Source: Betaproteobacteria bacterium (lineage in GTDB: Bacteria > Pseudomonadota > Gammaproteobacteria > Burkholderiales > JACQAP01). From it: 64,000 nucleotides of DNA. The stretch is taken from positions 1 through 64,000 of the forward strand of contig JACQAP010000004.1 in assembly GCA_016194905.1 (NCBI GenBank), written 5' to 3'. Shown piece after piece: positions 4,730 to 33,955 of the stretch. Position numbers and translations under genes: made by a program. A model generated the notes under the pieces. That model saw nothing but the letters and a program-made list of their open reading frames with translations, ran no database searches and was not told the origin of the DNA. The first letter of the stretch is position 1, and each line of letters starts with the position of its first letter.

Positions 4730-6262
4730 TTGAGCGCTTCCCCGGGCAACGACCCGATTTACGATTTGCTGATCGTCGGCGGCGGCATCAACGGCGTGGG
4801 GATCGCGCGCGACGCCGCGGGCCGCGGGCTGTCCGTTTTGCTTTGCGAGCAGGACGATCTCGCCGGTCACACCTCGTCCGCCAGCACCAAGCTCATCCAC
4901 GGCGGATTGCGCTACCTCGAGTACTACGAGTTCGGCCTGGTGCGCAAGTCGCTGCAGGAGCGGGAAGTGCTGCTGCGTGCCGCACCTCACATCATCCGGC
5001 CGCTTTCCTTCGTGATGCCGCACAACGCGGGACTGCGCCCCGCCTGGCTGATCCGCGCCGGGCTGTTCCTGTACGACCATCTCGGCAAGCGCGAGCTGCT
5101 GCCCGGTTCGCGCAGCGTGAATCTGCGTACTCACGCGGCGGGACAACCGCTCAAGCCCGAATTCGAGACGGGCTTCATGTACGCCGACGCGTGGGTGGAG
5201 GACGCGCGTCTCGTCGTGCTGAATGCGCTCGATGCGGCCGAACGCGGCGCAAGGGTTCTGCCGCGCACGCGCTGCGTCTCAGCCCGGCGGCATGCAGACC
5301 TGTGGGAGATGACTTTGCAGCCTGCGGGCGGCGATTCGGTGCAAATTGTGCGCGGCCGCGCGCTGATCAACGCAGCCGGGCCGTGGGTCATGAACGTGCT
5401 GCGCGAATCGCTCGGCATGCCATCCCGGCGCCATCTGCGCCTGGCCAAAGGCAGCCATATCGTGGTGCGGCGGCTGTTCGAGCACGACCATGCCTATATT
5501 CTGCAGAACCCCGACAAGCGCATCCTGTTCGCCATTCCCTTTGAGCGCGACTTCACTCTGATCGGCACCACCGACGTCGAATATGAAGGCGACCCCGCCA
5601 ATGCGTCGATTACGGATGCGGAAGTCGCTTACTTGTGCGAAATGGCGAACCGCTACTTCGCGCACGGCATCGCTCCCGCCGATGTGGTCTGGAGTTATTC
5701 AGGGGTGCGCCCTTTGCTGGCCGACCACGCAGCCAATCTTTCCGCCGTCACCCGCGACTATGTGCTGGAATGCGACGCCACATCCGAGCGCGCACCGCTC
5801 CTTTCCGTGTTCGGCGGCAAGATCACGACTTTCCGGCGCCTCGCGGAAGAAGCGCTCGATCTGCTTGCGCCTAGCCTGCCCGAATTGAAAAAGGCATGGA
5901 CGGCGGGCGCGCCGCTGCCCGGAGGCGACATCCCGGACGCGAACTTCGAAGGATTTCTCGCCGACTTTCACCGCTCGGCCCCGTGGTTGCCGGAAGCCCT
6001 CGCGCGCCGCTATGCACGCGCCTATGGCACTCGCGTCGACCGGCTCCTCGCAGGCGCAAGCAATCTGACGCGACTCGGCGAAGATTACGGCGGCGGGCTG
6101 TATGACGCGGAAATAGATTACCTGATAAGTCAGGAATGGGCGCAAACGGCGCAGGACATTCTCTGGCGGCGCTCGAAGCTGGGGCTGCATGTTTCGGACG
6201 AGACCGCAAGGCGACTTGCCGCGCGGCTGGCGCAGAATCTTAAAAGCAGGACTGAGGACTGA
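4730..6262 (+). CDS. glpD: Glycerol-3-phosphate dehydrogenase (FAD)
   Basis: A 510-residue aerobic glycerol-3-phosphate dehydrogenase, which oxidises glycerol-3-phosphate to dihydroxyacetone phosphate at the inner membrane and passes electrons to quinone. The N-terminal FAD motif is '[18 protein letters not shown]'. The family signature '[20 protein letters not shown]' follows, and the C-terminal helical domain starts near residue 390. The start is a TTG with an AAAGGAG site 7 bases upstream. The last codons and the stop (L-K-S-R-T-E-D-stop) lie inside a copy of the B-family repeat (6239-6273), so the native C-terminus has probably been replaced or extended. No glpK or glpF is adjacent. Confidence 0.93.
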
Positions 6263-6336
6263 GTAAGGGCGAAAAAATCAGAAAACGGGACCGAAGACCG
6301 CCTTAGAAGCAGTGCAGAGGGCTGAGTAAAGGCAAA
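6239..6336. repeat. B-family direct repeat (two 35-bp copies)
   Basis: Two 35-base copies at 6239-6273 and 6302-6336 agree at 28 of 35 positions by eye. Both begin CTTA.AAGCAG and contain CTGAGTAA.GGC. The first copy supplies the end of glpD. On the minus strand both are read as the abnormal tail of the four-helix-bundle pseudogene. The bases 6316-6333 recur exactly, as the reverse complement, at 28593-28610, where they overlap the stop codon of the AI-2E-family transporter gene. Confidence 0.75.
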
Positions 6337-6630
6337 GATCAAAAGATGAAACTCAGTACGACGTCCACGCCCAAATCCCTCGGCGATGTTACTCAGAATT
6401 GAAGTGGATGCTCGTCTGATCTGATCAATGAGAGAAAAATCTCTCGAGAACCCAGGAGCGAGGGTGGTTTTATAGATGTCGCGTACAAGCACTCTGGCCT
6501 TCTGCCATGCAATCAGATCTTCGAATCTTTCGATCTTGCTCATGGTTGCCCTCGGGTCATTGGTTAAGTAACAATTTTTCCGCCGTTACCGCCCGTCTTT
6601 CCGGCTCATTTCCCAGTCCTCAGTCCTGCT
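6245..6630. mobile_element. Putative element: B-family inverted repeats enclosing a four-helix-bundle gene
   Basis: AGCAGGACTGAGGACTG at 6245-6261 is the exact reverse complement of 6614-6630, a perfect 17-base inverted pair. Between them lies the N-terminal half of a four-helix-bundle protein gene. The arms consist of two 7-base units (GGACTGA). 23S rRNA intervening sequences show the same plan, a four-helix-bundle frame inside terminal inverted repeats, though none of the flanks here are rRNA. Mobility is inferred; target-site duplications were not identified. Confidence 0.45.
6345..6543 (-). pseudogene. Four-helix-bundle protein, truncated (23S-IVS/Avd-like family)
   Basis: The first 66 or so residues match the four-helix-bundle family: '[20 protein letters not shown]', then '[21 protein letters not shown]'. 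The family is normally about 120 residues. After 'GRGRRTEFH' homology stops, and the frame runs on to 6130 through the two B-family repeat copies and the antisense of glpD, giving a repetitive '[10 protein letters not shown]'/'[10 protein letters not shown]' tail. A GAGG site precedes the ATG. The family includes proteins encoded in 23S rRNA intervening sequences and the Avd subunit of diversity-generating retroelements; no reverse transcriptase is present. The truncation suggests a decayed copy. Confidence 0.7.
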
Positions 6631-6642
6631 TATCCGCCCCCC

Positions 6643-7344
6643 TCATTCCTCGACCTTAAGTAGCTCCGCCACTTCTTTGTGTTTGGCGTCACGCGCTATT
6701 TCCGCCGCCGTCTTGCCTCGATCATCCTTCAAACCGGGATCGGCACCCTTGGCGAGCAGCGTTCTGACTGTTTCCGTCTTGCCGTAGCCGGCAGCCCACA
6801 TCAACGCCGTAACACCGTGGTGATAGGATTTGTTGACGTCCACGCCAGCATCCAGAAGCAGGGCGACGATCCCGGTGTTGCCCTGCCCCGCCGCGTACAC
6901 CATCGCGGTCTTGAACAGCTGATCGCGGGCGTTCACGTCGGCGCCATGATCGAGCAGCGTGCGCGCGATGCCGGCATTGCCGTTGTAAGCCGCCGTCATC
7001 AGCGGCGACACCTTTTGGAGATTCTGCAGGTTGACGTCGGCATCTTTGCCGATCAGCAGGTCGACCATCTCGGCGTTGCCCTTGCGCACGAACATCATGA
7101 GCGCGGTGTCGCCGGCACGATTTCGTGAATTCGGTACCGCACCATTCTCCAGTACGCGGCGCACGGTCACGACATCGTCATTGCGCGCCGCAACAAGCAA
7201 CTGAGCATTCAAACCGAGGTCCGGAGAGGTCTGCGCATATGCACATGGATGCATAACCAACCGTTGATTCAAAGACGAAAACAGAAAATCGGAACCGGCA
7301 AAAAGTACTGCGACTACGAGTGAAAACCGGTGGAAGCGTGTCAT
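6643..7344 (-). CDS. Periplasmic ankyrin-repeat protein
   Basis: A 233-residue protein with an N-terminal hydrophobic segment ('FSLVVAVLFAGSDFLF') that looks like a signal peptide with a late cleavage site around 'CAYAQ', followed by about five ankyrin repeats. Repeat hallmarks are visible: 'GDTALMMFVRKGNAEMVDLL', 'SPLMTAAYNGNAGIARTLL', 'KTAMVYAAGQGNTGIVALLL', 'VTALMWAAGYGKTETVRTLL' and a capping 'GKTAAEIARDAKHKEVAELL'. Ankyrin domains bind proteins; the partner is unknown. It diverges from the PQQ dehydrogenase across a 158-base gap, so the two may share a control region. Soluble secreted ankyrin proteins are common in Proteobacteria, some linked to catalase or other redox enzymes. Confidence 0.82.
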   Translation of the reverse strand: MTRFHRFSLVVAVLFAGSDFLFSSLNQRLVMHPCAYAQTSPDLGLNAQLLVAARNDDVVTVRRVLENGAVPNSRNRAGDTALMMFVRKGNAEMVDLLIGKDADVNLQNLQKVSPLMTAAYNGNAGIARTLLDHGADVNARDQLFKTAMVYAAGQGNTGIVALLLDAGVDVNKSYHHGVTALMWAAGYGKTETVRTLLAKGADPGLKDDRGKTAAEIARDAKHKEVAELLKVEE

Positions 7345-7502
7345 GGAAGCAGTCGGGGAATCTTGCGAATTTGGAACGCGGATATGACCCTTGTACGGCC
7401 GGGAATTGTTCCTTATAGTCGCAGCGTCCGCAATCGCTACAGTCCGCGTGACAACGCGACAGTGAAAGCGCTGACTCTAACTACAACGCAACGGGAGGTT
7501 TT

Positions 7503-9230
7503 ATGAAGCTACATGCCCAAGTGAAACTGGCGGCGGCGGTAATGATGGCTGTCGGCAGCTTCAACTGTGTCCTGGCTGCGGAGATCGAAGGCGGCGCCAC
7601 CACTTCGGCGAAGCCGATGTCTTCGAAGCTCGGCATGGTCACGCAAAAACGTCTGAACAACGCACACAGCGACAAGGCCAACTGGCTGCATGTCAATGGC
7701 GGTTACTCGCAAACCCGCTATTACCCTGGCGGCCAGATCAACAGCGGCAACGTTTCCAAACTCAAGCCCGCGTTCGTATTTCAGACCGCGTTGGTCGAAT
7801 CGATGGAAACCGCACCGTTGATCATCGACGGCGTGATGTTCCTGACCACTTCCTACAACCATGTCTACGCAATCGATGCGAAGACCGGTCAGGAGTTCTG
7901 GCACTACAAGCACAACATGGGTCCGATCACCGTGTACTGCTGCGGCCCCAACAACCGCGGCGTAGCGGCGGCGGATGGCCTGCTGTACATGGGCACCCTG
8001 GACGCCAAGCTGGTGGCATTGGATGCAAAGACCGGCAAGGTAGCATGGGAAACCGAGATCGCGGATCCCGAAAAGGGTTACTCCGAAACCATGGCGCCGA
8101 CCGTGGTCGACGGCAAGGTCCTGATCGGCACCAACGGCGGCGAGTACGGTATTCGCGGATTCGTGAAGGCATTCGACGCCAAGACCGGCAATTTGCTGTG
8201 GACCTTCTACAGCATCCCGGAAAGGGGCCACGAAGGTGTGTGGGCCACGCATGACGCTACCGGACGCAACATGCTGCGCGACATCGCGGCGGAGAAGAAG
8301 ACGCTGCAGGATAACGGCGGCGACTTCTATCAGACTCTGGGCGGCGGCGTGTGGATGACGCCGGCAGTCGACCTCGAGACCCGCACCGTGTTCTTCGTGG
8401 TGGGCAACCCGTCTCCCGATCTGTATGGCGCGATCCGCCCGGGCGACAACCTGTACACCAACTCGATGGTTGCAGTGAGCCTGGACACCGGCGAGTACAA
8501 GTGGCACTCGCAATACATCGCGCACGACGTATGGGATCTGGACGCGGTCAGCCCGGTCGTCCTGACGGAAGCCAAGGACAAAGCCGGCAAGGTTCGCAAG
8601 GTCGCGATCCACGGCGGCAAGAGCGGACATGTGTACGTGCATGACCGTGCCACCGGCGAATTGATCCGCTTCTCGCAAGCCATGATTCCGCAGGAGAACA
8701 TGTGGGTCCTCCCGACTGCGCAAGGCGCTCGCATGCTTCCCGGTGCGAACGGCGGCGTGGAATGGAACCCGATGGCGGTGAATCCGAAGCTGCACATGGC
8801 CTATGCGGCCAATTTGCACCAGCCGATGACCTACCACGTCGAAGAAGCCGGCTATCCGGGTGGCGACAAGCTGTGGTTGGGCGGTGCGTTCAAGGCGATC
8901 GCGAGCGAGAAACAATGGGGTCGTCTGGCCGCAGTGAATCTCGACACCGGCAAACTGGCTTGGAAGGCCGACACCGCACAACCGCTGATGGGTGGCGTGC
9001 TGGCCACCGCGGGTAACCTGGTGTTCACCGGCGAAGGCAATGGCAGTTTCAATGCCTATGAGGCAAAGAGCGGCAAGAAGCTGTGGTCGTTCAACTGCGG
9101 CGCCGGCGTGAATTCGCCTCCCGTGTCGTACGAGATCGGCGGCAAGCAGTACATCGCGGTTGCGGCGGGCGGTAACAACCAGCTCGACTTCAAACGCGGC
9201 AACAGCGTTTTCGTTTTCGCCCTGCCCTAA
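7503..9230 (+). CDS. PQQ-dependent alcohol dehydrogenase, probably lanthanide type
   Basis: A 575-residue quinoprotein with a signal peptide ('[19 protein letters not shown]'), so periplasmic. It has the eight-bladed propeller repeats of methanol/ethanol dehydrogenases ('[14 protein letters not shown]', '[14 protein letters not shown]', '[13 protein letters not shown]'). The vicinal disulfide over PQQ is C146-C147 ([10 protein letters not shown]). A metal-binding Glu lies in 'GGEYGIRG' and an Asn in 'GNPSPD'. The catalytic region reads 'HDVWDLD', with D345 and a second Asp two residues later, D347; that extra Asp marks lanthanide-using XoxF/PedH-type enzymes, whereas calcium enzymes usually have a small residue there. 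It lacks a C-terminal haem domain, so it needs the cytochrome encoded just downstream. The alcohol substrate cannot be fixed from sequence, and no PQQ synthesis genes are nearby. Confidence 0.88.
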
Positions 9231-9265
9231 ACTTTTCGGCCGGTTAGTCGTTCTAACGTAGTCAA

Positions 9266-9293
9266 GGAGGGGCCACCTTCGGGTGGCCCCTCC
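9266..9293 (+). terminator. Strong hairpin after the PQQ dehydrogenase
   Basis: A perfect 12-base-pair stem (GGAGGGGCCACC / GGTGGCCCCTCC) with a TTCG loop. It is followed by CATTTCC rather than a long T run, so it may terminate or attenuate readthrough into the cytochrome gene. A TTCG tetraloop makes the RNA hairpin very stable. Confidence 0.75.
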
Positions 9294-9365
9294 CATTTCC
9301 ACCTCGTCCCCGCCTTCTCCCCAGAGCGGAGAAGGTGCTTGAAAACATTGCAACGGAAGTCACAG

Positions 9366-9941
9366 ATGAAGAAACTACTCGCGCTCGCCACGTTTCTTGC
9401 GCTGATCCCCGCGGGCGCACTCGCGCAGGACGCCGCCACCGGCAAGGAAAAGGCGGCCGTGTGTGGCGCCTGTCACGGCGCGGATGGTAACTCCACCATT
9501 CCGCAGAATCCGATCCTGGCGGGACAAACCGCGCGCTACATCTATCTGCAACTGCGCGACTTCAAGGAAGGACGCCGCAAGGACCCGATGATGTCGCCGA
9601 TGGCGGCGAACCTGTCGAAGAAAGACATGCTGGACCTCGGCGCCTATTTCGCCGCGCAGAAGCCGACGAATCAAAACTCGAAGGGCGAACCTTCGCTCGT
9701 GGCGAAAGGCAAAGCGGTCGCCGATGCCGCCATCTGCACCATGTGCCACTTGGGCAGCTTCTCCGGCCAGAACGAAATCCCGAAGACCGGCGGCCAGCAC
9801 TACGAATACGTGCTCAAGCAGTTGAAGGACTTCAAGGCGAAGAGACGCACCAACGACGCCGGCAACATGACGGCGGTATTGCGCACGATAGCGGATGAAG
9901 ATCTGGAGGCGGTTGCGGCGTATGTCGCGAGCCTCGACTGA
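9366..9941 (+). CDS. Periplasmic dihaem cytochrome c (c4-like)
   Basis: A 191-residue protein with a signal peptide ('KKLLALATFLALIPAGALAQ') and two haem c sites, CGACH (C33, C36, H37) and CTMCH (C124, C127, H128), in two homologous domains, the plan of cytochrome c4. Each domain has a later Met that could be the sixth ligand. Start ATG 9366 is chosen because it begins the signal peptide; an upstream in-frame ATG at 9339 adds an uncharged-poor leader. Its position 135 bases after the PQQ dehydrogenase suggests that it accepts electrons from that enzyme and passes them to an oxidase. The terminator-like hairpin between them means the two may be unequally expressed. Confidence 0.86.
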   Translation: MKKLLALATFLALIPAGALAQDAATGKEKAAVCGACHGADGNSTIPQNPILAGQTARYIYLQLRDFKEGRRKDPMMSPMAANLSKKDMLDLGAYFAAQKPTNQNSKGEPSLVAKGKAVADAAICTMCHLGSFSGQNEIPKTGGQHYEYVLKQLKDFKAKRRTNDAGNMTAVLRTIADEDLEAVAAYVASLD

Positions 9942-9945
9942 GACC

Positions 9946-10461
9946 GTGATTGGTGACTGGTGATTAGTGATTGGTACTTCTACAATTACTACTCCAGTAC
10001 TGGTAACCTAGAGCGGCAAGATGAACGGACCGCTCGATGAAATCGCATAAAGACCTCGAAGTCTGGAAGGCGGCCATTCAACTTGTCAAGAGTGTTTACG
10101 ATCTCACCGAGCACTTCCCGCAGAGGGAACGGTTTGGCCTTGCGGGTCAGATGCGTCGTAGCGCGGTATCGGTCGGAAGCAATATCGCTGAAGGTGCCGC
10201 TCGGAAAGGAAACAAGGAATTCCTCCAATTCCTGTGTGTGGCACTGGGGTCGGCCAGCGAGCTCGATACTCAACTGGAAATAGCCAAGCTGACTGGAATC
10301 GCTTCCGCTAATAATAGCGATCTCGTGACCGCAGATCTGGCTGCCGTATCTCGCATGCTGCAGGGCTTGATTCGATCCGTAAAAGCAAAACCTCGCGATT
10401 AAGTTCGCTATTCCCATTCAGGTGCCCTTTGCCAGTTACCAGTCACCTATCACCAGTCACC
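9946..10461. mobile_element. Putative element: A-family inverted repeats enclosing a four-helix-bundle gene
   Basis: The left arm (9946-9977) is made of GTGATTG/GTGACTG/GTGATTA units. The right arm (10427-10461) is the inverted form: GCCAGTTACC, AGTCACC, TATCACC, AGTCACC. A complete four-helix-bundle gene lies between them. The same arms, separated only by short loops and without a gene, occur at 11327-11394, 25574-25658 and 33872-33949. The layout therefore looks like a gene-carrying element with gene-less derivatives. The left arm begins 4 bases after the cytochrome stop codon. Confidence 0.5.
10037..10402 (+). CDS. Four-helix-bundle protein (23S-IVS/Avd-like family)
   Basis: A complete 121-residue member of the four-helix-bundle family (TIGR02436-like). 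It has the typical start 'HKDLEVWKAAIQLVKSVYDL', then 'FGLAGQMRRSAVSVGSNIAEG' and 'GNKEFLQFLCVALGSASELD', and a C-terminal helix with 'MLQGLIRS'. Relatives sit in 23S rRNA intervening sequences; the structurally related Avd binds reverse transcriptase and RNA in diversity-generating retroelements. No reverse transcriptase or template repeat is visible here. No clear ribosome site precedes the ATG. It is enclosed by inverted A-family repeats, and I infer that gene and repeats form one unit. Molecular function is unknown. Confidence 0.85.
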   Translation: MKSHKDLEVWKAAIQLVKSVYDLTEHFPQRERFGLAGQMRRSAVSVGSNIAEGAARKGNKEFLQFLCVALGSASELDTQLEIAKLTGIASANNSDLVTADLAAVSRMLQGLIRSVKAKPRD

Positions 10462-10485
10462 GACGGATCATTTCGCCAGTGCGAA

Positions 10486-11316
10486 ATGTCCGCGCTCTGC
10501 CTCCACGGCTTCCACCGCCTCAACTACTACGAATGGGGAGACCCGGCCAACTCGAAAGTCCTGATCTGCGTGCATGGCCTGACGCGAAACGGCCGCGACT
10601 TCGATGACATTGCGCGCGCGCTTTCCTCCGAATATCGCGTGCTCTGCCCCGACGTGCCCGGCCGCGGAAAAAGCGAATGGCTAACGCATAAAGAGGACTA
10701 CGCCTATCCGGTTTACTGCGCGGACATGGCCGCGCTGATCGCGCGCAGCGGCGCGCAAACCGTGGACTGGATCGGCACGTCGATGGGCGGACTGATCGGT
10801 ATGCTGCTCGCTGCTCAGCCGAATTCACCGATCCGCAAGCTGGTGATGAACGATGTCGGACCGTTCATTCCGAAGGCATCGCTGGAAAGGCTGTCCACTT
10901 ACGTGGGCAAACCCGTGAGCTACGATTCATTCGACGCCTTCGAACAATACATTCGCGTGGTGTCCGCATCGTTCGGCCCGCTGACCGATGCGCAATGGCG
11001 TCATCTCACCGAAACCACCGCCCGGCGCAAGGACGACGGCCGATGGGGAACGAACTACGACCCGGCGATCGCACTGCCATTCGCGGGACCGATCGCCGAT
11101 GTTGCGCTGTGGCCGTTCTGGGATCAGGTCCGTTGCCCCACACTCCTGTTGCGCGGCAAGACTTCCGACCTGTTGATGAGCGAAACCGCACGCGAGATGA
11201 CCACTCGCGGTCCGAAAGCAAAGCTCGTGGAATTCACCGGCATCGGCCATGCACCGATGTTGATGGCAGCCGACCAGATCAACGTAGTCCGCGAATTTCT
11301 TCTCGGACAAGGCTGA
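10486..11316 (+). CDS. Alpha/beta-hydrolase
   Basis: A 276-residue single-domain alpha/beta-hydrolase. Features are the oxyanion 'CVHGLTRNGRDFDD', the nucleophile elbow 'IGTSMGGLIG' (Ser), the acid-bearing strand region 'CPTLLLRGKTSDLL' (Asp) and the catalytic His in 'EFTGIGHAPMLM'. I start at ATG 10486 because an upstream extension to 10429 would only translate the A-family repeat. It lies between two copies of that repeat and upstream of dgoK-dgoA, so it may be co-transcribed with the sugar-acid genes, but nothing in the sequence shows lactonase activity. The substrate is unknown; the family includes esterases, haloperoxidase-like enzymes and C-C hydrolases. Confidence 0.82.
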   Translation: MSALCLHGFHRLNYYEWGDPANSKVLICVHGLTRNGRDFDDIARALSSEYRVLCPDVPGRGKSEWLTHKEDYAYPVYCADMAALIARSGAQTVDWIGTSMGGLIGMLLAAQPNSPIRKLVMNDVGPFIPKASLERLSTYVGKPVSYDSFDAFEQYIRVVSASFGPLTDAQWRHLTETTARRKDDGRWGTNYDPAIALPFAGPIADVALWPFWDQVRCPTLLLRGKTSDLLMSETAREMTTRGPKAKLVEFTGIGHAPMLMAADQINVVREFLLGQG

Positions 11317-11326
11317 TCGGTGGCCC

Positions 11327-11394
11327 GGTGATTAGTAACTGGTGACTGGTGGAAGCAATAAGGACTTTTCACTAATCACTAGTCACCAATTACT
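11327..11394. repeat. A-family hairpin repeat without a gene
   Basis: The left arm (11327-11351: GGTGATTAGTAACTGGTGAC and on) and right arm (11369-11394: TCACTAATCACTAGTCACC and on) are imperfect inverted copies separated by about 17 bases. The repeat fills the gap between the hydrolase stop (11316) and the dgoK start (11400), which leaves dgoK with no clear ribosome site. Confidence 0.8.
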
Positions 11395-11399
11395 GAACC

Positions 11400-12278
11400 A
11401 TGCTCGCCATCGACTGGGGCACCACTTCCTTTCGCGCATACCGTCTCGATCCGGCCGGCAGGATAGTCAATACACGTTCCGCACCGGCGGGCATTCTTTC
11501 CGTCGAGGGTGGAAACTTCGCCGCCGCACTGGAGCAGCAGGCCGGCGACTGGATTGCCGACGGCGAGACGCAGGTCGTCATGAGCGGCATGATAGGCAGC
11601 CGCCAGGGATGGATCGAGGTGCCTTATGCGGCATGCCCCGCCGGTCTGGATGAAATCGCCGCAGGAATGCGCAAGGTCGCGTGGGATCGCGGCGAGGCCT
11701 GGATTGCGCCGGGACTGACTTGTCGCGACGACGCCGGGGTTCCGGATGTGATTCGCGGCGAGGAGACCCAGATTCTGGGCATTCTCGCCCAGTTCGGCGC
11801 GGGCCGGCACACCATCTGTCTGCCGGGCACGCACAGCAAGTGGGTCGAGGTCGAAAACGGGAAGATCGTACACTTCTCGACGCACATGACCGGAGAGGCC
11901 TTCGCCGTGTTCAAGGCGCACAGCATTCTGGGACGCATGATGAAGGATGGCGTCACGGACAGGAATGCGTTTACGGACGGCGTGCGCCGTTCGGCCGATG
12001 ACGGCGGGATGCTGCACCACCTGTTCGGCGTGCGCTCCCGTGGATTGCTCGGCGAACTGCAGGAGACGGCTTCCGCGTCGTACCTGTCCGGCCTGCTCAT
12101 CGGCCACGAGATTCATGCCGCCGGTATCAGCGGACAACCCGTGCACCTGCTGTGCACCCCCCAGCTCGCGGACGTCTATCGTCAGGCACTTGACGTACTG
12201 GGATTGGAATCCAGTACACTCGATTCCAACGCGGTCACCACTGGACTGTTCCGGCTGGCGTCTCACCTGAAAAAATGA
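11400..12278 (+). CDS. dgoK: 2-dehydro-3-deoxygalactonokinase
   Basis: A 292-residue kinase of the DgoK family, which phosphorylates 2-dehydro-3-deoxy-D-galactonate at O6 in the DeLey-Doudoroff pathway. The N-terminal phosphate-binding loop is 'AIDWGTTSFRAYRLD'; a second signature, 'LPGTHSKWVEVENGKI', is the DgoK adenosine/substrate motif, followed by 'FSTHMTGEAFAVF'. Length is normal for the family. The gene overlaps dgoA by 4 bases (ATGA), so the two are translationally coupled. Its own leader has been overwritten by an A-family repeat ending 6 bases before the ATG. Galactonate dehydratase and a transporter are absent from the window. Confidence 0.92.
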   Translation: MLAIDWGTTSFRAYRLDPAGRIVNTRSAPAGILSVEGGNFAAALEQQAGDWIADGETQVVMSGMIGSRQGWIEVPYAACPAGLDEIAAGMRKVAWDRGEAWIAPGLTCRDDAGVPDVIRGEETQILGILAQFGAGRHTICLPGTHSKWVEVENGKIVHFSTHMTGEAFAVFKAHSILGRMMKDGVTDRNAFTDGVRRSADDGGMLHHLFGVRSRGLLGELQETASASYLSGLLIGHEIHAAGISGQPVHLLCTPQLADVYRQALDVLGLESSTLDSNAVTTGLFRLASHLKK

Positions 12279-12916
12279 AAACCGAATCCTTTGCCGGCTG
12301 GCTCAGGCGCTGGCCGCTGGTCGCCATCCTGCGGGGCATCAAGCCCGGGGAGGCGATCGACATTGGCGCTGTGCTGGTGGAAACCGGTTTTTGTATCGTC
12401 GAAGTTCCATTGAATTCTCCCGAACCTTTCGCCAGCATCATCAGGCTGTCGAAACGGTTCGGCGACAAAGTGCTGATCGGTGCGGGAACGGTCACGGACT
12501 GGGAGCAGGTGCAAAAGGTGGCCGATGCGGGCGGCAGAATCATCGTGATGCCGCATGCGGATGAGCGCATCGTCGAAGCCGCCAAGCGTCGCAATCTTTA
12601 CGCGGTGCCCGGCTTTGCCTCGGCCACGGAAGGTTTTCGCATGATCGAAGCCGGAGCCGACGCCATCAAACTATTCCCCGCCGAGGCCAACCCGCCGAAA
12701 GTGCTGAAGGCGCTGCGCGCCGTGTTGCCGAAGGCAGTGCCGGTGCTGCCGGTGGGCGGCATCACCCCGAACAACATGAAGGAATACTGGGAAGCCGGCG
12801 CGGACGGCTTCGGACTCGGTTCGGCGCTGTACAAACCCGGCGATACGGCGGCAAAAGTCGCGCAGTCAGCGGCGGATTTTCGCTTCGCTCTTCACGTTCT
12901 GCCGAAGAAGCCGTGA
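12275..12916 (+). CDS. dgoA: 2-dehydro-3-deoxy-6-phosphogalactonate aldolase
   Basis: A 213-residue class I KDPG/KDPGal aldolase (TIM barrel). It cleaves 2-dehydro-3-deoxy-6-phosphogalactonate to pyruvate and glyceraldehyde-3-phosphate. Family marks are 'PLVAILRGIKPGEA', with the catalytic-pocket Glu in 'IVEVPLNSPEP', 'IGAGTVTDWEQV' and the Schiff-base Lys in 'ADAIKLFPAE'; a phosphate-binding 'PVGGITPNNM' follows. The phrase 'PLNSPEPFASI' is typical of the galactonate rather than the gluconate enzyme. It overlaps dgoK by 4 bases, so KDGal is phosphorylated and then cleaved by consecutive gene products. Confidence 0.92.
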   Translation: MKTESFAGWLRRWPLVAILRGIKPGEAIDIGAVLVETGFCIVEVPLNSPEPFASIIRLSKRFGDKVLIGAGTVTDWEQVQKVADAGGRIIVMPHADERIVEAAKRRNLYAVPGFASATEGFRMIEAGADAIKLFPAEANPPKVLKALRAVLPKAVPVLPVGGITPNNMKEYWEAGADGFGLGSALYKPGDTAAKVAQSAADFRFALHVLPKKP

Positions 12917-13270
12917 CAGGATTGCGGAAATTTCGGCACTCTCGTCGACCCTTCGACCCGCCCAAGACGGGTCATCACCTGCAATAGCGCTTTCTTACGC
13001 GCTTGTAAGCCCCCCGACCGTTGATCCGGCCGCGAGCCTCACTCCCCTCGCCTCATAACGGTCGCATTGAGGCGACGGACGGTCGTTTTCACCTTACCGC
13101 CGTGCGTAGCCCGCCTGGTTGTCAGAAGCCGCCGCTCGTCAGCCACGCGCTGTACTGCGTCGCTCCTGGCATCGGATATGCACATGTCAAGGGTAAAGCG
13201 GGCGACTGGCGTGGTATCCACGACCACTGCAACCTAACGTGACGAAGGAGTAACCGAAGCGGAGTTCATC
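12917..13270. other. Intergenic stretch, no gene recognised
   Basis: About 350 bases between dgoA and a small hypothetical gene. Open frames are present on both strands but none has a recognisable product or a good start site. A short inverted pair, GCCTCA...TGAGGC, lies near 13050-13075. I see no tRNA, no repeat of the families found elsewhere and no convincing transposase remnant. Confidence 0.4.
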
Positions 13271-13654
13271 ATGAAGACAAGCGAACGCACCATGGCTGCC
13301 ACCCTGTCCGACGAAGTTTGGAAAGCATTGCATTCAGTGTCTGGACAGCGAGCGGACGCGGCATCCGCCATGCCGAAGGAGTTGGAGCAACCTTCCACCG
13401 ATACGGTGGACAGCATCCGCCGGCTGATGCTTCAGCCGCAAGGGCTGCGCAAAATCGTGCCGATGGCCGGCAGTCGGTTCGCATCCCGGCTCGCTATCGA
13501 AGACAAGGACCGGGCGAAGGTCGACGCCATATTCGCCTGCCTGGCGATCTGCGCGGATGAAGAACGCCGCGCAATTGCGTTCGGGTCCCGGGAAGCGGTT
13601 GCCGTGACGCAACGCTGCATCTATAGCATCAAGAAGAAGTTTGGGATCAGCTAA
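13271..13654 (+). CDS. Hypothetical protein, 127 residues
   Basis: A small soluble protein that I do not recognise. It is largely helical and charged, with 'LSDEVWKALHSVSGQ' near the start, a middle 'TVDSIRRLMLQPQGLRKIVPM' and a basic end 'RCIYSIKKKFGIS'. It contains two Cys and no signal peptide or membrane segment. A GGAG site lies about 7 bases before ATG 13271. It stands alone between the dgo genes and an acyl-CoA dehydrogenase on the other strand, and a C-family repeat begins 17 bases after its stop. Coding is supported by the start context and G+C at third positions, but function is unknown. Confidence 0.5.
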   Translation: MKTSERTMAATLSDEVWKALHSVSGQRADAASAMPKELEQPSTDTVDSIRRLMLQPQGLRKIVPMAGSRFASRLAIEDKDRAKVDAIFACLAICADEERRAIAFGSREAVAVTQRCIYSIKKKFGIS

Positions 13655-15411: not shown

Positions 15412-15604
15412 TCTCAACGCAGAGGCGCAGAGAGCGCAAAGGTCGCAGAGGAAAACAAAACGGACGATAAGGGTAAACGCAGTACCGTGATCCAATCGAC
15501 AAATAGAAACTGACGCAGCGGACTATTGTGTACGGACACCTCTAGCGTGCCTCCATCGTATTCCTTTGCGCCCTCTCTTTTCACCTCTGCGCCCTTTGCG
15601 TCAA
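15412..15604. repeat. F-family inverted repeat pair
   Basis: The left arm (15412-15455) consists of CGCAGAGG, CGCAGAGA, GCGCAAAG and GTCGCAGAGG units starting TCTCAACG. The right arm (15561-15604) is the inverted form, ending GCGTCAACG. About 105 bases lie between, without a gene. It occupies the space between the acyl-CoA dehydrogenase start and the SSADH stop. Confidence 0.75.
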
Positions 15605-21520: not shown

Positions 21521-21653
21521 AAAAGGTGAAAGGTCAAAGAGCAAAGAAAATACTTGCCTTAGGCCTGGCTGTGGCCTAGTTCTTACCTTTCCACTTTAAC
21601 CTTTCCGCTTTAACCTGGTTTCTTTCACCTTTCCTCTCTAACCTTTTCTCTCT
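21521..21653. repeat. E-family inverted repeat (AAAGGTGAAAGGTC type)
   Basis: The left arm (21521-21551) is made of AAAGGTG, AAAGGTC, AAAGAGC and AAAGAAA. The right arm (21581-21653) is a longer inverted series (CTTACCTTT, CCACTTTAA, CCTTTCCGC, TTTAACC, CACCTTTCC). The space between holds its own inverted pair around TAGGCCTGGCTGTGGCCTA. The right arm encodes the end of the Gcr-like protein (E-R-E-K-V-R-E-E-R-stop). Confidence 0.75.
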
Positions 21654-23703: not shown

Positions 23704-23752
23704 CGGCAGCGGTGGTTTGGCACGTTAGGGGGAAAGTATCACAGCGGAGGTT

Positions 23753-23850
23753 CGTGAATATCGTGAATAACGTGAAGCAAGAAGACGTGAGAGTCGTAAA
23801 AGCACTGAGAAGTTACGGTATTCACGATATTCACGGATTCACGGAATTTA
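23753..23850. repeat. C-family hairpin repeat (GTGAATATCGTGAA type)
   Basis: The left arm (23753-23776) is CGTGAATATCGTGAATAACG. The right arm (23815-23845) is the inverted GGTATTCACGATATTCACGG followed by a third unit. The loop is about 38 bases. The right arm contains the stop codon of rlmK (23831-23833), and the left arm begins 50 bases upstream of the Gcr-like gene. Confidence 0.8.
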
Positions 23851-25573: not shown

Positions 25574-25658
25574 GGTGATTCGTGACTGGTGATTGGTAAA
25601 AGGCAAGAGCCTTGGCCAGGGGCTTAAAACCAATTACCAATTACCAGTTACCAATCAC
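25574..25658. repeat. A-family hairpin repeat without a gene
   Basis: The left arm (25574-25600: GGTGATTCGTGACTGGTGAT and on, then GGTAAAAGG) and right arm (25623-25658: ACCAATTACCAATTACCAG, TTACCAATCAC) are inverted. The short loop contains its own pair GAGCCTTGGCCAGGGGCTT. It lies 3' of the outer-membrane protein gene and cuts off the end of the EamA fragment. Confidence 0.85.
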
Positions 25659-25662
25659 TTCC

Positions 25663-33871: not shown

Positions 33872-33949
33872 GGTGACTAGTGATTGGTGATTTGTGACTG
33901 GCAAAAGACCAGGTCTGAAAGCTTTTGCTAATCACCCGTTACCAGTCAC
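33872..33949. repeat. A-family hairpin repeat without a gene
   Basis: The left arm (33872-33906: GGTGACTAGTGATTGGTGAT, TTGTGACTGGCAAAAG) and inverted right arm (33922-33949: CTTTTGCTAATCACCCGTT, ACCAGTCAC) surround a loop of about 15 bases. It fills the gap between fabG-like (stop 33956-33958) and earP (start 33865), so it is both 3' trailer of one gene and 5' leader of the other. Confidence 0.88.
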
Positions 33950-33955
33950 GGCCTT

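Follow-up and report, generated by a model that had tools for sequence, protein, structure and literature searches.

A gene enclosed by inverted copies of a short word, with the same word recurring nearby around no gene at all, raises the question of whether gene and repeats belong to one genetic unit. Such a locus lies in the stretch of 64,000 nt of betaproteobacterial DNA analysed here (contig JACQAP010000004.1, positions 1 to 64,000, hereafter the window). A first-pass annotation, made from the letters of the window alone, had read it as a gene-bearing unit accompanied by gene-less derivatives.

A four-helix-bundle gene between inverted heptamer arrays

The forward-strand ORF at 10037-10402 encodes a protein of 121 aa that matches PF05635 (23S_rRNA_IVP) in Pfam (E 1.4e-35, 122.2 bits against a cut-off of 33.8) and the four-helix-bundle model TIGR02436 in NCBIfam (E 4.8e-35, 120.1 bits against a cut-off of 24). 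We refer to genes of this family as IVP genes. The first-pass annotation had called the gene 23S-IVS/Avd-like; its scores against Avd models are below the cut-offs (23.6 against 40 bits in Pfam, 21.4 against 80 in NCBIfam). The same annotation saw no known nuclease fold in the protein, and this agrees with our searches of the ORF in Pfam and NCBIfam, which returned neither a transposase nor a nuclease match. The Pfam scan, carried out on the gene itself, yielded 23S_rRNA_IVP and bAvd only, and no REP-associated transposase.

The gene is indeed enclosed by inverted GTGATTG-type arms. The left arm (9946-9977, forward strand) consists of four 7-nt units, GTGATTG, GTGACTG, GTGATTA and GTGATTG, and the right arm (10423-10461, reverse strand) carries the GTGATTG-type unit in inverted form. 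Arrays with a lag of 7 extend over 9946-9975 and 10423-10461, and the segments 9952-9976 and 10437-10461 form an inverted pair of 25 nt with 88% complementarity. According to a listing of the ORFs in 7000-13500, the IVP ORF is the sole gene between the arms. It is neighboured by a cytochrome c-like and a hydrolase-like gene, neither of which exceeds a curated cut-off in a family scan of three neighbouring ORFs, and the element is not inside an rRNA gene, as there was no Rfam match at the gathering threshold in 5800-26500. The unit pattern GGTRAYTRGTRAYTRG, with at most two mismatches, has 21 matches in the window, compared with a mean of 0.36 and a maximum of 2 in 100 shuffles. All 21 are found in four places, namely the gene element and the hairpins at 11327-11394, 25574-25659 and 33872-33950, which are the three further occurrences of the arms that had been reported.

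A second IVP element lies on the reverse strand of the window (6244-6631), where the IVP profile search and inverted repeats (6244-6266 and 6609-6631, unit GGACTGA) coincide. It contains a partial IVP gene (6346-6522, reverse strand) that covers profile positions 1-59 of 106. The third IVP of this genome, on contig C30, has arms of GGGGCTA. Each of the three IVP genes found in the source genome thus lies between inverted 7-nt arms, and no two of them use the same word. Because the unit differs between loci, the single 'A-family' repeat named in the first-pass annotation does not exist as such.

Generality of the arms around IVP genes

IVP loci came from the source genome and from four further sets: 60 relatives, of which 14 gave a match and 13 exceeded the cut-off; 299 genomes of the phylum, 52 of them matching and 48 above the cut-off; 99 genomes from a single genus, of which 82 matched; and a scan of one genome per species, from which the best 80 of 589 confirmed stretches were taken. 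These best 80 represent many phyla and one Methanophagales archaeon. From the 163 loci collected we left out L071, which is identical to L023, and eight truncated loci, so that 154 were usable. Arms were scored as the best inverted match between the 300-nt flanks, with a threshold of more than 15, and control pairs were cut farther out at the same loci.

Inverted arms were present at 123 of the 154 IVP loci and in 2 of 290 control pairs. This is the outcome of a check that the first-pass annotation had proposed, and it supports the idea, voiced there, of a broader type of mobile element. The 154 loci are not mutually independent; when those that share a flank are counted once, 58 of 79 have arms and 71 of 79 a period of 7 or 8. 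The dominant tandem period was 7 at 125 loci, 8 at 20 (145 for 7 or 8) and 9 at 3, whereas in the 290 controls, with period harmonics folded as in the loci, it was 7 in 37, 8 in 10 and 9 in 52. Neither arms nor arrays were found at 11 of the 154 loci.

The two arms of a locus commonly carry one and the same word. The left unit was the reverse complement of the right unit (at 0.85 or above) in 70.5% of the 129 loci with two arrays, compared with 6.4% when the two units were taken from different loci. The counts given here for the meta-motif, for orientation and for protein-unit pairs use representatives of these 129 loci and are therefore conditioned on arrays; in them, as in the unit comparison, L030 was read at the gene of L024, which does not affect the 123 of 154 or the 2 of 290. 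The left unit of 63 representatives had more G than C in 53 cases, less in 6 and equal amounts in 4. Four or five units per arm were counted on the left in 35 of 63 and on the right in 40 of 63, with a tail up to 38. A meta-motif common to 54 seven-nt units was set aside as weak (best LL -365.8; mean -378.6 and best -371.7 over 30 shuffles of letters within units).

Some loci depart from this picture. The arms of L097 (acidobacterial) and L140 (planctomycete) comprise about 20 or more units, as against the usual four to five. At L018 (genome G040; flanks of 1501-1803), an IVP gene by a dnaK-like gene (by eye) has flanking inverted repeats that are CTAGGACGACG-like and lack a 7-nt period, possibly a further type of arm. 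On G002:C270, a span of about 7.5 kb contains three IVP elements, one of which is split into two matches (L303, L024 and L030).

Insertion sites and joint presence of gene and arms

We compared the spacer that holds the window element with that of three congeners. In G003 it contains another IVP (L027, 39% identical) in the opposite direction with arms of GGCCGAG, in G001 neither an IVP nor 7-nt arms, and in G002 other insertions and neither the window gene nor its arms. None of the three keeps the gene at this site without the repeats, a combination that the first-pass annotation had held to speak against a joint unit. In G001 this spacer, after the cytochrome c-like gene, holds a different inverted repeat of the TGGGTTGAGCGCAGCGATACCCA type (L038).

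Two further sites in genus g134 could be followed through many genomes. The right neighbour of locus A is 3-hydroxyisobutyrate dehydrogenase and the left one, by eye, acyl-CoA dehydrogenase. Gene and 7-nt arms are both absent here from 13 of 17 IVP-less genomes, two of these 13 having another short insertion, and decayed remnants of arms are visible by eye in 4 of the 17. At locus B, the nuoC/nuoD spacer, gene and arms are both absent from all 14 IVP-less genomes that could be matched (3 of 17 gave no match). The genomes of L173 and L064 have another IVP with other arms at locus B, in flanking DNA that is 83-94% identical. These joint absences, which had been suggested as a check, and the different elements in one spacer reveal that gene and arms come and go together and that one spacer can host different elements. 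Target-site duplications were not evident by eye at the two loci with empty sites. Nor was a recent transposition seen: IVPs at unrelated sites reach at most 78% identity.

Other IVP genes lie between dnaK and dnaJ (L025), after IMP dehydrogenase (L009) and before recN (L031), as well as, by eye, at thyA/folA, livK/livH and other sites. L033 lies inside a bacterial 23S rRNA gene (Rfam RF02541, LSU_rRNA_bacteria) and has 7-nt inverted arms of like plan, as expected from the earlier statement that 23S rRNA intervening sequences (IVSs) share this layout. Two ideas about how the words arise or change were set aside. Some arms resemble the stop-codon region, which would fit a unit copied from the host target, but this idea was dropped because the unit is missing from L220, the closest of the empty sites at locus A. 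At a livK/livH-like locus (GGGGCTA versus GGGGCGA), the IVP genes are too diverged for a concerted change of both arms to be told from replacement.

Orientation could be assessed at 54 loci with both neighbours called (9 of 63 representatives were uncallable). By these ORF calls, which are crude and look wrong by eye for L006, all three genes are co-directional at 38 loci, the IVP gene runs against co-directional neighbours at 3, the left neighbour is divergent at 8 and the right one convergent at 5. The IVP gene thus lies in the sense direction in 38 of 41 co-directional spacers. As the arms are symmetric, this bias must stem from the gene, which fits read-through expression.

An unrelated gene family with the same layout

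A family of PD-(D/E)XK-like proteins unrelated to IVP has arms as well. On contig C5 of the source genome (137729-138199), inverted arms of CGCAAAGG-like 8-nt units surround a GxxExxY protein (TIGR04256, E 4.8e-40; PF13366, PD-(D/E)XK nuclease superfamily, E 1.2e-39). Among 25 GxxExxY matches from relatives, 18 score above 17, the highest value in 40 control pairs; the 25 include two pairs that are fragments of one gene, two matches below the family cut-off and two whose flank was set wrongly at a contig end. Of 30 loci from the phylum, 8 were truncated and left out; the threshold of 15 is exceeded at 17 of the remaining 22 and in 0 of 44 controls.

GxxExxY and IVP genes occur partly in the same genomes. 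A hand count over G000-G050 gave 12 genomes with IVP over the cut-off, 8 with GxxExxY over the cut-off and 7 with both, four of the seven belonging to one genus. In the phylum sample, also counted by hand, both were present in 18 genomes, of 48 with IVP and 57 with GxxExxY; this co-occurrence is largely within one family, so kinship may explain it. GxxExxY elements resemble IVP elements in having one small gene, inverted arms of short units and gene-less hairpins. They differ in their nuclease-like protein and in their units, which are mostly of 8-10 nt (CGCAGAGG-like) and less varied.

The Avd accessory proteins of diversity-generating retroelements (DGRs), which are taken as homologous to PF05635 (PMC10053308) and are related to IVP at the profile level, offer a contrast. 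Inverted arms were found at 0 of 8 usable Avd loci and in 0 of 16 control pairs (15 of 30 loci taken, 7 skipped as truncated, and four of the eight used below the family cut-off). The Avd kinship suggested for the window gene therefore does not extend to its layout.

Hairpins without a gene

Two of the three gene-less hairpins with the GTGATTG-type unit were found both by a hairpin scan and by the unit pattern. The one at 11327-11394, between the hydrolase-like gene and an ORF at 11400-12278, has a loop of about 25 nt. The one at 25574-25659 has a loop of about 24 nt. The third, at 33872-33950, was found by the unit pattern and is below the threshold of the scan. The scan also revealed hairpins with other words in the window. 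A hairpin at 23752-23835 has a 9-nt unit, CGTGAATAT, that resembles the arms of the 9-nt IVP element L302 (congener G002) and the left array of L011 (G003). Another, at 15425-15600, has a 9-nt unit of the GxxExxY type and a loop of 132 nt. The short hairpin at 21522-21611, with 7-nt units AAAGGTG/AAAGGTC, is a near tie between unit classes (0.75 versus 0.71). Hairpin 25574-25659 has matches of nearly full length in G002 and G003, at 7 places each, but not in G001, and one nearby spacer holds different hairpins in G002 and G003.

We scanned sampled DNA for such hairpins (periods 7-10, loops of at most 250 nt). With classes that lean on unit lists chosen by hand from earlier results, 16 short hairpins were nearest to IVP-type units and 23 to GxxExxY-type units. 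The 16 comprise 12 from the 644 kb sampled in the window's genus and 2 each from 100 kb of G048 and 100 kb of G038. Three genomes with neither IVP nor GxxExxY yielded five hairpins in 400 kb, all in G010 and none with such units by eye. G030, which has GxxExxY only, contained two gene-less hairpins of the GxxExxY type, two of periods 11 and 12, and none of the IVP type. Neither type was found in the 100 and 120 kb sampled from G049 and G045, which have IVP only, and 100 kb of G037, which has both genes, held no gene-less IVP-type hairpin. Several hairpin words resemble units of resident IVP elements: GTGATTG and GGGGCTA in G000, an 8-nt GTGAACGA-like word in G038, and 8-nt GTGATTA-like and GAGTGAT-like words in G048. 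These observations support the relation between a gene-bearing unit and gene-less derivatives that was proposed for the window; the protein may act on the hairpins in trans.

Correlation of protein and unit, and selection on the gene

To relate proteins and words, 65 loci without common flanks were compared. A unit was shared (at 0.85 or above) in 15 of the 69 pairs with proteins at least 60% identical; over 5000 permutations the count averaged 2.5 and never exceeded 10, so that none reached 15. By the measure used, the other 54 of the 69 pairs share no unit, and among pairs with proteins below 50% identity a unit is shared in 2-3%. L025 and L031, for example, lie at the dnaK/dnaJ and recN sites and encode IVPs that are 75% identical, and both have GTGAACG-like 8-nt units. 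This pattern could arise from a cassette that moves with its arms or from a protein and unit that change together, as either would give it. Conservation of the unit and its correlation with the protein could also follow if the cassette is simply inherited whole and no binding takes place.

The IVP gene is under strong purifying selection at three fixed loci of one genus. Median omega was 0.063 at locus A (16 of 18 genes, 120 pairs), 0.061 at locus B (4 of 6 genes, 6 pairs) and 0.066 at locus C (5 of 5 genes, 7 pairs), with median dS of 0.6-1.4 (0.83 at locus A). Such very low values at sites fixed throughout a genus are as compatible with vertical inheritance of a gene that benefits its host as with mobility. 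In the first 35 nt of each array, the unit AGTAGGC persists nearly throughout both arms of the 18 loci at locus A, with a partly changed left arm in L185. Its copy number ranges from 2.6 to 13.1, and the left and right arms vary independently.

The protein itself offers some clues. The net charge of the matched IVP domain is about zero (mean -0.24, range -5 to 4), unlike the usual charge of a strong nucleic-acid binder; charge lends no support to such binding. The family alignment matches the solved structures 2gsc and 2rld, each with five chains per entry, and the title of the 2gsc paper, as listed among the references of PMC10053308, speaks of five four-helix bundles. By analogy, the count of five subunits may be related to that of four to five units in each arm.

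A proposed class of small cassettes and its alternatives

We interpret the window locus, with a probability of roughly 0.6, as a member of a widespread class of small cassettes in which an IVP gene lies between inverted arrays that its cognate protein reads as DNA sites. A cassette would consist of a single IVP gene and two inverted arrays; an array would commonly have four to five units, each 7 nt long or, in some cases, 8 or 9. It would enter short intergenic spacers, mostly between co-transcribed genes, with the IVP gene along the direction of transcription and probably expressed by read-through. Gene and arms would be gained and lost as one unit, and gene-less derivatives would persist as short hairpins. 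On the DNA, the arms would serve as arrays of binding sites for a ring-shaped protein, with about one subunit per unit; protein and unit would change together, so that lineages have their own word of nearly constant length. The 23S rRNA IVSs that carry an IVP gene would be cassettes of the same class that landed in rRNA. We read the class as mobile over evolutionary time, with gene-less derivatives and with the 23S IVSs as a special case; recognition of the unit by the IVP protein, and its role in movement, is what we infer from the patterns described above. The lack of near-identical copies at different sites and of an evident target duplication, together with the very low omega at fixed sites, argues against easy mobility.

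Two other accounts strike us as unlikely. One places the function in RNA: the arms would pair in the transcript, RNase III would cut the stem and release the IVP segment, insertion into operons or rRNA would be tolerated, and selection would act on RNA pairing. The arms do form the outer stem of the predicted RNA fold of 9940-10466 (z -3.57, reached by 0 of 100 shuffles), although the inverted repeat as such accounts for most of this score; the sense direction of IVP genes in spacers of operons also fits, as does the cleavage of the Coxiella 23S IVS by RNase III in vitro (PMC4990558). Selection on pairing is nevertheless not supported, as arm mismatches on the sense strand of 58 representative loci comprise 80 G-U and 104 A-C, a difference in the other direction (two-sided p 0.09), and the copy numbers of the left and right arms at locus A are independent. 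Given the predicted stem and the Coxiella cleavage, processing may happen without being what selection keeps. The other account, which we consider slightly less plausible still, holds that IVP is a host-beneficial, vertically inherited regulatory gene whose protein adjusts the expression of its own operon by binding to the arms there, and that it spreads by horizontal transfer with its flanks rather than by transposition. It would explain an omega of about 0.06 at the three fixed loci, orthologous elements in many species of one genus and the strong sense orientation. It is harder to reconcile with similar IVP and unit pairs at unrelated sites, such as L025 and L031, and with the many absences, the different IVPs in one spacer and the multi-copy gene-less hairpins.

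There is very little to recommend the view that the arms are ordinary slippage-prone heptanucleotide repeats that gather in spacers, with IVP genes there by coincidence. Among long simple repeats, those of heptanucleotides form the most abundant class in the majority of the genomes that Mrazek et al. 2007 examined (cited in PMC4679880). The arms, however, are inverted and usually have a common, locus-specific unit; flanks farther out and Avd loci lack them, and the 400 kb from genomes without either gene gave no hairpin with such units by eye. We consider this view ruled out by the inverted same-unit arms and the controls.

If the cassette reading is correct, the 23S rRNA IVSs, long a curiosity, become one instance of a class of cassettes that spans bacterial phyla and one archaeon. 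The reading would suggest a role for a family in which the solved proteins bear only the names 'uncharacterized' or 'putative uncharacterized', and a possible origin for the 7-nt repeats that are so puzzlingly abundant in bacterial genomes. Reading of the unit would further mean that each IVP protein prefers its own word. A bolder version, which we offer tentatively and would not bet on, is that these are transposase-free mobile cassettes of bacteria and archaea in which a ring protein reads about five short units, one per subunit. Lock-and-key evolution would turn over the unit sequence while its length stays at 7 (8, 9), the IVP four-helix bundle and the unrelated nuclease-like GxxExxY would have converged on this design, and such cassettes would be the source of the IVP-bearing rRNA IVSs and of a good part of heptanucleotide repeats.

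Comparison with known systems

The IVP family, the 23S IVSs and the tandem heptamers of the Coxiella IVS are already known. Among the papers listed by full-text searches of the literature, at the level of titles and abstract starts and with subscription journals and preprints mostly outside their coverage, none joins IVP genes beyond rRNA with heptamer arms or GxxExxY genes with repeat arms. Dispersed heptamers have been described in other contexts. Geobacter metallireducens has 49 dispersed elements with four tandem GGACCGG-like heptamers, which were read as regulatory (PMC2700814); by description they are like IVP cassettes in being dispersed short tandem heptamers. TAACTGA heptamer repeats reportedly have a distribution similar to that of XisH/XisI proteins (PMC4679880) and might, by analogy, represent a further cassette family.

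In 23S rRNA IVSs such as that of Coxiella (S23/IVP ORF), the IVP ORF lies between inverted terminal repeats, as it does in the window. Tandem GACAGAT heptamers precede the Coxiella ORF (PMC4990558), and IVP ORFs have been reported in rRNA insertions of CPR bacteria (PMC11270868). Unlike 23S IVSs, the cassettes described here lie in spacers between protein genes, have gene-less derivatives and carry a locus-specific unit that follows the protein. The window element also differs from DNA transposons or insertion sequences with their MITEs, as neither Pfam nor NCBIfam gave a transposase or nuclease match for the one gene between its arms. REPIN/RAYT systems combine a small gene, cognate inverted hairpins and many gene-less copies (PMC3116915), and dispersed hairpins are found here too; however, IVP is a four-helix bundle with no Pfam transposase match, and its arms consist of 7-nt units in tandem, with a different word from locus to locus. 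REPIN/RAYT would thus be the closest analogue in logic, and the cassette appears IVS-like in its parts and REPIN-like in its logic.
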